NCBI RefSeq assembly: GCF_001427025.1 | Contig: NZ_LMGA01000001.1 | Span: 3,089,715 to 3,153,714, forward strand | Length of the DNA: 64,000 nt | Source of the DNA: Mesorhizobium sp. Root554 | GTDB taxonomy: Bacteria; Pseudomonadota; Alphaproteobacteria; Rhizobiales; Rhizobiaceae | Direction: 5' to 3' | In this document: positions 38,027-64,000 of the stretch, piece by piece | Layout: each line of letters opens with the position of its first letter | Numbering within the stretch: the stretch's first letter is position 1 | The notes under the pieces: model-generated | The model's database searches: none | What the model was told of the DNA's origin: nothing | Seen by the model: the letters and a program-made list of their open reading frames with translations, nothing else | Program-made: the position numbers and the translations under genes

Positions 38027-41048
<3,022 letters not shown>

Positions 41049-41102
41049 AGACCTGAGACTGGCCTACGGCTTCAGCCCTGTCAACCTTGGTTGGGCGTTG
41101 GG

Positions 41103-61252: not shown

Positions 61253-61564
61253 ATGCTAGTCTGCCATTGCAACATCATCACCGAGAAGGAGATCGAGCAG
61301 ACGATCATCGGTCTGCTCGACCAGGATCCCTGGCAGCTTATCGTGCCCGCGAAGGTCTATCATGCGATGCACAAGCGCGGACGCTGTTGCGGCTGCTTCC
61401 CAAATGTGGTGGAAACGATCATTCGCGTCACCGAAAATTACCACGCCCGTTCGGAGGCGAACGGCGTGGATATCGTTTCACACCTGGACCGCGTGAGAGG
61501 CTTGCGCGTCCAATACGGGAGCAGAACCCATGAAGGGCGAACCACAGGTCATCGAGCGGCTTAA
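61253..61564 (+). CDS. bfd: Bacterioferritin-associated ferredoxin
   Basis: This [2Fe-2S] protein of 103 residues passes electrons to bacterioferritin to release stored iron. The cluster ligands read as CxC at Cys4 and Cys6 ([14 protein letters not shown]) and CxxC at Cys45-48 (RCCGC), giving the Bfd pattern with a spacer a few residues longer than in Escherichia coli. The family domain ends around residue 65; the last 35 residues are an unconserved tail ([20 protein letters not shown]) whose code overlaps the bfr start by 35 bases. The start ATG at 61253 is the only good candidate. Confidence 0.93.
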
Positions 61565-62027
61565 CGAGGCTCTGTTTCTGGAGCTCGGCGCCGTCAACCA
61601 GTACTGGGTGCATTTCCGGCTGCTGGAAGACTGGGGCTACACCAAGCTGGCCCGCAAGGAACGCGCGGAATCGATCGAAGAGATGCATCATGCCGACAAG
61701 CTGGTGGCCCGCATCATCTTCCTGGAAGGGCATCCGAACCTCCAGTCGGTGGCGCCGCTGCGCATCGGCCAGAACGTCAAGGAAGTGCTGGAATCCGACC
61801 TTGCCGGCGAATACGACGCCCGCACCGCCTACAAGCGGTCGCGCGAAATCTGCAACGAGCTGGGCGACTATGTAAGCATGAAGCTGTTCGAGGAGCTACT
61901 TGCCGACGAGGAAGGCCACATAGACTTCCTCGAGACGCAGCTCGACCTGCTCGCTTCGCTGGGCGAGGAGAAGTACGGCCAGCTCAACGCGGAATCCGCC
62001 GACAAGGCTGAAGTCGGCGAGGCTTAA
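61530..62027 (+). CDS. bfr: Bacterioferritin
   Basis: This 24-mer iron-storage protein of 165 residues oxidises and stores iron. The ferroxidase residues are all present at the standard numbers: Glu18, Glu51, His54, Glu94, Glu127 and His130. The heme ligand Met52 is also present (EEMHHADKL), so it is a true heme-containing bacterioferritin. The gene overlaps the bfd end, which couples their synthesis. It is placed in the middle of an operon whose other members look like uptake functions, which is unusual. Confidence 0.98.
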
Positions 62028-62036
62028 GGACATGGA

Positions 62037-63743
62037 ATGCGGCGCATCCTAGGTTTTTTGCGCCGCGCGTCGCCGGGTTCCTTCTCGCCGTTCACGGCGC
62101 GAAGGTTTCGCGACGAGACGGATGAGGGGCAGCGTTACCCTCTGGAAGGTTCGCGCCGCCCCTCATCTGCCTGCCGGCATCTTCTCCCCGTGAACGGGGA
62201 GAAGCACGCGCTCGGCCCCCTCGCTGTCTTCACCGCCGTTGCTCTGGTCGCGGCGTGGCCGACGGCGATATTTGCCGGCGATATCGTCTCCCCGAACCTC
62301 TCCACCGTCCGCACCGATCTTTCCGCGAAAGACCTCGCCCGCGTCGAGGCGATCACCAGGCCGACGGCGGATTTCTCGAGGCCCGAGCAGTTCGAGCTGA
62401 TGCAGGGCGGCGCCGGCACGTCGCGCAAGCGGGTCAACGCCGATTCCTTCTCGCAATCCTCCGCCAACATCACGTTCGAGGAGGAGGGCGCCTTCAAGCT
62501 CGGCAATGCCCTGTTCCGCAAGAACTGGGTGTCGTCGCCGTCCTCGACGCAGGCATCCGACGGCCTTGGCCCGCTGTTCAACGCCCGCGCCTGCCAGAGC
62601 TGCCATCTCAAGGATGGTCGCGGCCATCCGCCCGAAGGCAATCCGGACGCCACCTCGATGTTCCTGCGGCTGGCGCGCGAGGCATCGACCGACGAGGAAA
62701 AGGTGGCGCGCGCCGAAGGCCGGGTGCTGAATTTCCCCGACACGACCTATGGCGCGCAACTGCAGGACCTTGCCGTTCCCAGCCTCAAGGGTGAGGGCCG
62801 CATGCGGGTCACCTACGCGGAAACGCCGGTAACGCTCGGCGATGGCGCCGTGGTTTCCCTGCGCAAGCCGTCTTATCGAGTCGAGGACCTCGCCTACGGT
62901 CCGCTCGATCCCACGACGACGCTGTCGCCGCGCATCTCACCGCCGATGATCGGTCTCGGTCTGGTCGAACAGATCGCGCCTGCCGATGTCCTCGCCCACG
63001 CCGATCCGTATGACCGCGATGGCGACGGTATTTCCGGCAAGCCGAACATGGTGCCCGACGAGCTGACCGGCAAGCACACGCTCGGCATCTTCGGCTGGAA
63101 GGCGCAGACACCGTCCATCCGCCAGCAATCGGCCGACGCCTTCGCTGGCGACATCGGCATTTCGACGCCGGAAGTACCGCATCATTGGGGCGATTGCACC
63201 AAGGCCGAGGCCGATTGCCTCGCCCTGCCGAACGGCGTGCAGGAACGGCTGGGACCGGTCGAGGCCCCGCCGCCGGTCATGGATCTCGTCACCTTCTACT
63301 CGCAGAATCTTGCCGTGCCCGCCCGCCGCGACATCGGCAGGAAGGATGTCCTGGCCGGCAAGCAGGCGTTCTACGGGATGGGCTGCATCTCCTGCCACAC
63401 GCCCAAATTCGTCACCCGCCGCGATACGCCCAACAAGGCGCAGTCGTTCCAGCTCATCTGGCCGTATTCGGATTTCCTCCTGCACGGCATGGGTGAGGGA
63501 CTTGCGGACGGACAGGCCGTTGGGGAGGCCACGGGGAACGAATGGCGCACGCCGCCGCTCTGGGGCATCGGCCTGACGAAACGGGTCAACGGGCATACGT
63601 TTTTCCTCCATGACGGACGTGCGCGTAGTCTGACGGAAGCCATTCTGTGGCACGGCGGCGAGGCGCAAAAGGCGCGTGACCGTTTCGCCGCCGCCGATGC
63701 CGAAACACGCGCGGCGTTGATCAAGTTTCTGGAGTCGCTGTGA
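62037..63743 (+). CDS. Di-heme oxidoreductase-like protein (DUF1111, COG3488)
   Basis: This exported protein of up to 568 residues has two heme-binding CxxCH motifs (ACQSCHLKDGRG and GCISCHTPKF), consistent with a periplasmic di-heme electron-transfer protein (COG3488), regularly found with imelysin genes in iron-regulated loci. The reliable part begins at the hydrophobic signal LAVFTAVALVAAWPTAIFA. About 50 codons before it are formed by a palindromic repeat (62080-62204). The start is uncertain: ATG 62037 has AAGGA 6 bases upstream, but it lies in a hairpin (62039-62066). GTG 62190, inside the repeat, would give a normal signal peptide but has no ribosome site. The stop shares one base with the next start. 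Confidence 0.85.
   Translation: MRRILGFLRRASPGSFSPFTARRFRDETDEGQRYPLEGSRRPSSACRHLLPVNGEKHALGPLAVFTAVALVAAWPTAIFAGDIVSPNLSTVRTDLSAKDLARVEAITRPTADFSRPEQFELMQGGAGTSRKRVNADSFSQSSANITFEEEGAFKLGNALFRKNWVSSPSSTQASDGLGPLFNARACQSCHLKDGRGHPPEGNPDATSMFLRLAREASTDEEKVARAEGRVLNFPDTTYGAQLQDLAVPSLKGEGRMRVTYAETPVTLGDGAVVSLRKPSYRVEDLAYGPLDPTTTLSPRISPPMIGLGLVEQIAPADVLAHADPYDRDGDGISGKPNMVPDELTGKHTLGIFGWKAQTPSIRQQSADAFAGDIGISTPEVPHHWGDCTKAEADCLALPNGVQERLGPVEAPPPVMDLVTFYSQNLAVPARRDIGRKDVLAGKQAFYGMGCISCHTPKFVTRRDTPNKAQSFQLIWPYSDFLLHGMGEGLADGQAVGEATGNEWRTPPLWGIGLTKRVNGHTFFLHDGRARSLTEAILWHGGEAQKARDRFAAADAETRAALIKFLESL
62039..62066 (+). other. Hairpin after bfr at the putative DUF1111 start
   Basis: Arms GCGGCGCA (62039-62046) and TGCGCCGC (62059-62066) with a T-rich loop, 11 bases after the bfr stop. 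It may stabilise the bfr message end. It also covers the potential ATG at 62037, so it could lower translation of the following gene if that start is used. Confidence 0.45.
62080..62204. repeat. RIME-like palindromic repeat element
   Basis: About 125 bases form a long imperfect palindrome. The left end CTTCTCGCCGTTCACGGCG corresponds to the right end, where CTTCTCCCCGTGAACGGGGA is itself a perfect-looking dyad. Inner parts GGATGAGGGGCAGCG and CGCCGCCCCTCATCTGCC are complementary with few mismatches. Sequences of this type are known as RIME elements of rhizobia and usually lie between genes. Here the element is open in the frame of the DUF1111 gene. I find no second copy in the window. Confidence 0.75.
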
Positions 63744-64000
63744 TGCTGCAACGCCTTGCTTTTGCCGGCGGCGTGTTGGCCGTTTTGATGGGATGCGGGT
63801 CGCCCGCCGCTGCCGCCGACGCATCGGCGATCGTTCGGCAGGCGGTCGACGGTTTTGTTCGCCCGGCTTACGCCGAGTTGGCCGTTAAGGCCGGCGACGC
63901 GGAAAAGGGCATCGAAGCCCTTTGCGGCGCACCGAGCCAGCAGGCCTTGAACATGGCCCGGGCGGAGTTCGCCGGCCTGATCGACGCCTGGTCCTCGGTC
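63743..64000 (+). CDS. Imelysin family lipoprotein, 3'-truncated
   Basis: The window ends 86 codons into this gene. The N-terminus MLQRLAFAGGVLAVLMGCGS is a lipoprotein signal: the lipobox VLMGC puts the acylated cysteine at residue 18. The visible mature part (ASAIVRQAVDGFVRPAYAELAVKAG, in parts) and the pattern ALCGAPSQQALNMARAEFAGLIDAWSSV match the start of imelysin-domain proteins of group COG3489, which often follow COG3487-COG3488 genes. The ATG overlaps the preceding TGA by one base. The rest lies outside, so domain completeness cannot be checked. Confidence 0.82.
   Translation, partial: MLQRLAFAGGVLAVLMGCGSPAAAADASAIVRQAVDGFVRPAYAELAVKAGDAEKGIEALCGAPSQQALNMARAEFAGLIDAWSSV

Follow-up and report, generated by a model that had tools for sequence, protein, structure and literature searches.

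The window, i.e. the whole stretch of 64,000 nucleotides that was analyzed, contains the bfr gene for a ferritin-like protein (61530–62027; PF00210, E = 7.6e-32) directly 5' of a DHOR gene. Both genes, as well as all further features of the locus, are located on the plus strand. The bfr gene ends with a TAA stop codon (62025–62027), and a Shine-Dalgarno-like AAGGA motif (62026–62030) lies 6 nt 5' of the ATG at 62037–62039; for the 20 nt before this ATG, a duplex of -6.3 kcal/mol with the anti-SD sequence was calculated. According to the ORF listing, the DHOR reading frame is open from this ATG to 63743 and encodes 568 amino acids, and residues 124–568 match positions 8–499 of the 499 positions of PF06537 (E = 1e-92), which identifies the product as a DHOR/DUF1111 protein. 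The DHOR stop codon is overlapped by the start of a second imelysin-like gene (63740–64000), which is cut at the window end; it is called imelysin-like by analogy with such operons, not from a Pfam match. The sole Rfam match in the window at the gathering threshold was a TPP riboswitch on the minus strand (40931–41054, 68.9 bits).

The DHOR protein begins with a putative Sec signal peptide, in which a repeat is embedded. Comparison with element-free relatives defined the native 5' part of the n-region (MRRILGFLRRASPG.., 62037–62079). It is followed by a RIME-like palindromic repeat, which encodes SFSPFTARRFRDETDEGQRYPLEGSRRPSSACRHLLPVNGEK (62080–62204), and by the hydrophobic core (about PLAVFTAVALVAA, 62220–62258), with a 12-residue Kyte-Doolittle maximum of 2.61 from residue 62 and 12 arginine or lysine residues before the peak. 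A cleavage site was placed by eye between AIFA and G, so that the mature DHOR protein is predicted to be encoded by 62277–63743.

Structure and dispersal of the repeat

The initial annotation had described a RIME-like element of about 125 bases that follows bfr and is open in the DHOR frame. Our analysis bears this out: the element occupies 62080–62204 within the open reading frame 62037–63743, and it belongs to a dispersed repeat. Fold and inverted-repeat analyses showed that it is composed of palindromes in a RIME-like manner, with outer inverted repeats of 24 nt each (62081–62104 and 62181–62204, 88% complementary) and a central stem (62116–62141 and 62147–62172). The fold of the region 62020–62215 was better than those of all 200 shuffled sequences (z = -4.8).

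The element is found at seven distinct places, partly in incomplete form, in the 3.75-Mb genome from which the window is derived, corresponding to 12 strand-wise matches at E<=1e-3. The genus is taken to be Mesorhizobium, as named members of it are the top-ranking relatives and the genus-mate genome G071 has the start region of M. erdmanii USDA 3471. All 14 genomes that were searched contained it, with 8–68 strand-wise matches each at E<=1e-6, a count in which palindromes can match on both strands. It was also present in 176 plasmid records, 152 of which belong to Rhizobium or Sinorhizobium. A full-length match of 72% on the S. meliloti 1021 record NC_003078.1, which we take to be pSymB, is suggestive of RIME identity, but only suggestive. 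RIMEs have a size of roughly 100 bp or more. We presume the element to be a RIME from the general character of these repeats and from its distribution rather than from annotated RIME1 or RIME2 sequences.

Five further copies in the same genome have flanks that look intergenic by eye. The copy in the DHOR gene is not intergenic: it has the native start on its 5' side and the core of the signal peptide on its 3' side. Because the five other copies look intergenic, it could be an insertion of the intergenic type that came to lie in a chance open frame. In the orientation found here, just one of the three frames is free of stop codons, which holds for the window copy as well as for a consensus-like copy, and in a simulation 26 random changes of the consensus-like copy left this frame open in 39% of the cases. 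An open frame by itself could thus readily persist under drift and was not used as evidence; the window alone could not settle the matter, and comparative evidence is stronger. A non-exhaustive inspection by eye of 20 regions with protein-level matches revealed no convincing second case of a coding RIME, and at L293, L294, and L298 (L numbers denote loci, G numbers genomes) the element is located upstream of another gene's apparent own start. A translated search of the plasmids yielded three Shinella records, in none of which the best match had an annotated gene.

The translational start and the hairpin that overlaps it

A start of the native type was found in 182 of 187 full-gene loci (174 with MRR, three with MRH, two with MRC, and three with GTG), a set that consists of near relatives and in which some genomes are counted twice. 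Among 108 distinct sequences, the bases A, T, and G of the start codon are conserved in 107, 108, and 108, respectively. In near relatives, bfr is directly followed by the DHOR gene, whose product begins with a conserved MRRxxxxxRR. This start is not conserved in more distant genera: a similar string was present anywhere in the frame in 16 of 60 further family loci, and the likely start carried it in fewer than 16. Judged from these comparisons, the ATG at 62037 is the native and ancestral start and lies upstream of the element. The element therefore lies inside the n-region of the signal peptide, between native codons, and is best described as an insert within the n-region, not as an N-terminal extension. 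Of the earlier proposal that translation begins at 62037 and yields a repeat-derived N-terminal extension, the start therefore holds, while the extension gives way to an internal insert. The initial annotation had stated that its reading would be refuted by relatives with the same long N-terminus and no repeat. This objection applies only partly, as there are relatives with the same start and no repeat, yet with a shorter n-region. For annotation, this means that the true N-terminus would be lost if the start were called downstream of the repeat.

The start codon is overlapped by a conserved hairpin (GCGGCGCA...TGCGCCGC, 62039–62066). Bases 3–9 and 24–30 of the gene (GCGGCGC and GCGCCGC) form all 7 base pairs of the stem in 127 of 132 distinct sequences, compared with a mean of 20 and a maximum of 34 when the letters of the arms were shuffled, a control in which relatedness is not taken into account. 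Eleven departures from the stem are kept as G-U pairs, three are compensatory (all in one clade, L282/L286/L287), and six break the stem. An alignment of 38 sequences, which were picked so as to include departures, showed the same stem, one covarying pair, and loop changes of codon size. In addition, third codon positions in the hairpin are conserved, and where arginine follows the ATG, 134 of 135 distinct sequences use CGG, although CGG accounts for 15% of the arginine codons of the core. These patterns argue that the hairpin is under constraint at the nucleotide level. The arginine codons near the start are then partly explained by the RNA hairpin, and the conserved MRR becomes weaker evidence for a constraint on the protein, yet the true start of the gene remains marked.

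The hairpin may plausibly couple translation of the DHOR gene to that of bfr, and it offers a separate lead on a possible coupling of bfr and DHOR expression. As a regulon motif it was rejected: the window's genome contains 14 matches to the pattern versus 5 to the reversed pattern, and by eye the other 13 matches have no similar loop. An out-of-frame ATG is located just upstream of the DHOR start in the window and opens an ORF of six codons (MECGAS-stop, 62032–62052), which overlaps the DHOR start. Such an out-of-frame ATG is conserved among relatives, which are mainly Mesorhizobium, at a position shifted 5' by one codon relative to the window. Each of its bases is retained in 107 of 108 sequences, and those of a TAG in 108, 99, and 94 of 108.

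The repeat itself had been suspected to mask the start by its own hairpin. This was not borne out, as the predicted accessibility was almost the same with and without it: the probability that the AUG is unpaired was 0.50 with the element and 0.45 when the element was removed and the flanks were joined.

Inserts in the n-region of related species

In-frame inserts in the n-region were recognized in 13 of 142 distinct start-to-core sequences. Four of these carry a RIME, i.e. the window, L272 (genome G148), L189 (genome G272), and L183, which has half an element and shares its start region with L040 (M. albiziae). In G148, a further insertion is nested in the RIME of L272 (L159 is the same place), and the frame is still kept. 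The carriers of other inserts are L185 and L052 (Aminobacter), L200 (start region as in L090, Oryzicola mucosus), L277, L278 (M. erdmanii), L198, L194, L205, and L210. Two loci, L056 (at a contig edge) and L093 (partial), were excluded from the counts; of 145 genomes of the genus with the gene, the counts cover those whose sequence was read, the others having been judged by open-frame length alone.

Six insert families were multicopy in carrier genomes, namely the RIME and five others, and for each of the latter 30–63 strand-wise matches were obtained when the insert was compared with a carrier genome. The inserts used for these searches were taken from carriers other than L194 and L210, which are nevertheless counted as carriers. 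The L205 insert is repetitive only over about the first 60 of its 240 bases. No match between any two of the six families was found at E<=1e-3, and the L205 repeat had no match in G327, the genome of L194, though both inserts share 16 bases.

The reading frame from the ATG to the core was intact and open in all 164 loci that match the start-hairpin pattern exactly, a number that includes near-duplicate genomes; it is also open in L198, which lacks the exact pattern. The hydrophobic core was present in 13 of 13 carriers, with mean hydropathies of 1.7–2.9 compared with a median of 2.3 for non-carriers (n = 169). The mature part of the protein was free of comparable inserts: among 188 cores whose alignment covered 451 aa or more (of 208 loci with a match), the longest insert was 6 aa. 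As a control, bfr showed no insert of more than 8 aa in any of 222 loci.

The four RIMEs share their orientation and their exact starting point, 43 nt 3' of the A of the ATG, whereas the other inserts begin at positions 51–103. In a tree of 104 DHOR cores, the RIME carriers require four changes. Three are sister to element-free sequences, and the fourth, L183, is attached at an open fork. L189 and the element-free L184 have nearly identical cores (branch lengths 0.008 and 0.012). The window itself has no close strain in the set, its nearest DHOR core being at 86%.

Readings of the in-frame repeat

We favor the explanation that a RIME-like repeat was inserted in the n-region of the DHOR signal peptide, where it would be translated, exported, cleaved off, and tolerated, and we assign it a probability of about 0.8. 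The repeat would have entered the basic n-region, 43 nt downstream of the first base of the start codon, and the only frame that it keeps fully open when so oriented would have coincided with that of the gene. Because the two frames agree, ribosomes would read through the element, i.e. from the ATG at 62037 via MRRILGFLRRASPG and about 42 repeat-encoded residues into the native hydrophobic core. The general secretory route would export the protein, and cleavage by signal peptidase would take off the entire segment of about 80 residues. As the core and the AxA site are intact, the mature di-heme protein should be unchanged after cleavage. Tolerance would follow from the modest demands on this segment, for which positive charge and a lack of structure suffice, and would make the element nearly neutral; the same tolerance would have allowed other repeat families to settle in the n-region of related species. 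The integrity of the frame, together with the confinement of the inserts to a disposable segment, supports this mechanism of reading through and discarding. The n-region of DHOR thus seems to be a disposable segment that takes up repeat DNA. That captured DNA would be translated and then discarded is a simple logic that can be tested, and the n-regions of this single enzyme, which span lengths from about 30 to about 100 residues, form a natural series with which the length that export bears can be probed.

The initial annotation had offered the GTG at 62190–62192, within the element, as an alternative start. Translation would then yield MNGEKHALGPLAVF... with an ordinary short signal peptide, and the open frame upstream would be fortuitous. 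The GTG is in frame, and MNGEK followed by the hydrophobic core makes a plausible signal peptide, but its predicted pairing with the anti-SD sequence amounts to only -1.7 kcal/mol, compared with -6.3 kcal/mol at the ATG. Furthermore, L272 and L189, which carry a RIME as well, have GTA at this codon, that half of the element is missing in L183/L040, a downstream start would not require the frame to be kept as it is in 164 of 164 loci, and the start and hairpin common to the near relatives remain intact upstream. We therefore rejected this start and consider it very improbable. In L189, another in-frame GTG just 5' of the hydrophobic core is a possible start. It is also conceivable that the element is kept for regulation, in that stems early in the coding sequence slow ribosomes or stabilize the mRNA and thereby fix the bfr/DHOR ratio, with the peptide being incidental. 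The very stable fold and the presence of several unrelated palindromic repeats in the same segment would fit; however, 129 of the 142 distinct sequences have no recognized insert, sister species differ, and the predicted access to the start is hardly altered, which makes a regulatory role unlikely.

The tolerated insertion of a repeat in the n-region is compatible with more than one history of the RIME copies, as the common position at +43 reflects a single old insertion that was lost cleanly many times, or else the repeated use of one site. A single ancestral insertion is a real possibility, to which we give somewhat less than an even chance: all four carriers share position and orientation, and the well-supported branches of the tree are compatible with one origin, but four changes are needed, three carriers have element-free sisters, and many clean in-frame losses would have to be assumed. 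Moreover, the L189 copy looks recent, as its 5' end is consensus-like by eye. A broader proposal is that the n-regions of signal peptides in Rhizobiales in general form a safe harbor in which, because the segment is cleaved off, repeats of many unrelated families arrive, diversify, and decay in frame and leave the mature protein unaffected, with RIMEs returning to +43. We regard this generalization as tentative and rather doubtful; if true, the return to exactly that nucleotide would imply site-directed mobilization.

Comparison with known palindromic elements and the second signal peptide of the operon

Rhizobium-specific intergenic mosaic elements (RIMEs; Osteras et al. 1995) are treated as intergenic repeats in the relevant passages of PMC2573895, and are mentioned in passing in those of PMC2780559 and PMC2245857. 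The element described here resembles them in being rhizobial, palindromic, dispersed, and present in many copies, but, unlike RIMEs as described in these passages, the DHOR copy sits inside a coding sequence. In-frame palindromic elements have been described in Rickettsia (RPE; Ogata et al.), where, according to the pertinent passages of PMC10969869 and PMC2229807, they are inserted in many unrelated genes. The initial annotation had named this precedent, and we consider it apt: in both cases short palindromic repeats are fused in frame within protein genes, as far as these passages describe them, and in DHOR, a conserved protein gene has received an insertion in frame while orthologues without the element exist, in the manner of an RPE. 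In contrast to the RPEs as portrayed there, several repeat families gather in one n-region, and the mature protein is spared. The RPEs and the repeats in DHOR genes are presumably different repeats.

Fusions of ORFs with the enterobacterial repeats RU-1 and RU-2 have also been reported, e.g. in Y. pestis YPO1552, in which, according to the section concerned, RU-2 contributes part of the signal sequence itself (Delihas 2007, PMC2759123). Unlike YPO1552 as presented in that section, DHOR keeps its native start and core and gains a longer n-region from the repeat, which has happened repeatedly in different genera. In the open-access literature, we found no report of coding palindromes in rhizobia or of repeats in signal peptides. 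Coding palindromes as such are thus known from Rickettsia and enterobacteria, while their recurrent capture by one n-region in Rhizobiales is new as far as that literature goes. It provides a second alphaproteobacterial setting for coding palindromes, which are best known from Rickettsia.

Other genes of the operon were inspected as well. For the upstream imelysin, no such insert was present among the rows that were read, which contained the longest frames only. The downstream imelysin-like gene carries a shared in-frame insert in its n-region in the clade L055/L126/L132/L135/L140. The L126-type insert is multicopy, with 4, 27, and 13 strand-wise matches in G135, G119, and G166, respectively. 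In L194 and L210, the downstream imelysin-like gene also has an n-region insert; that of L194 matches other loci examined, whereas that of L210 has no match among them. At four loci from more distant genera of the family (L237, L239, L247, and L267), repeat-like palindromic inserts are located in frame just after the predicted DHOR signal peptide and ahead of the mature domain.
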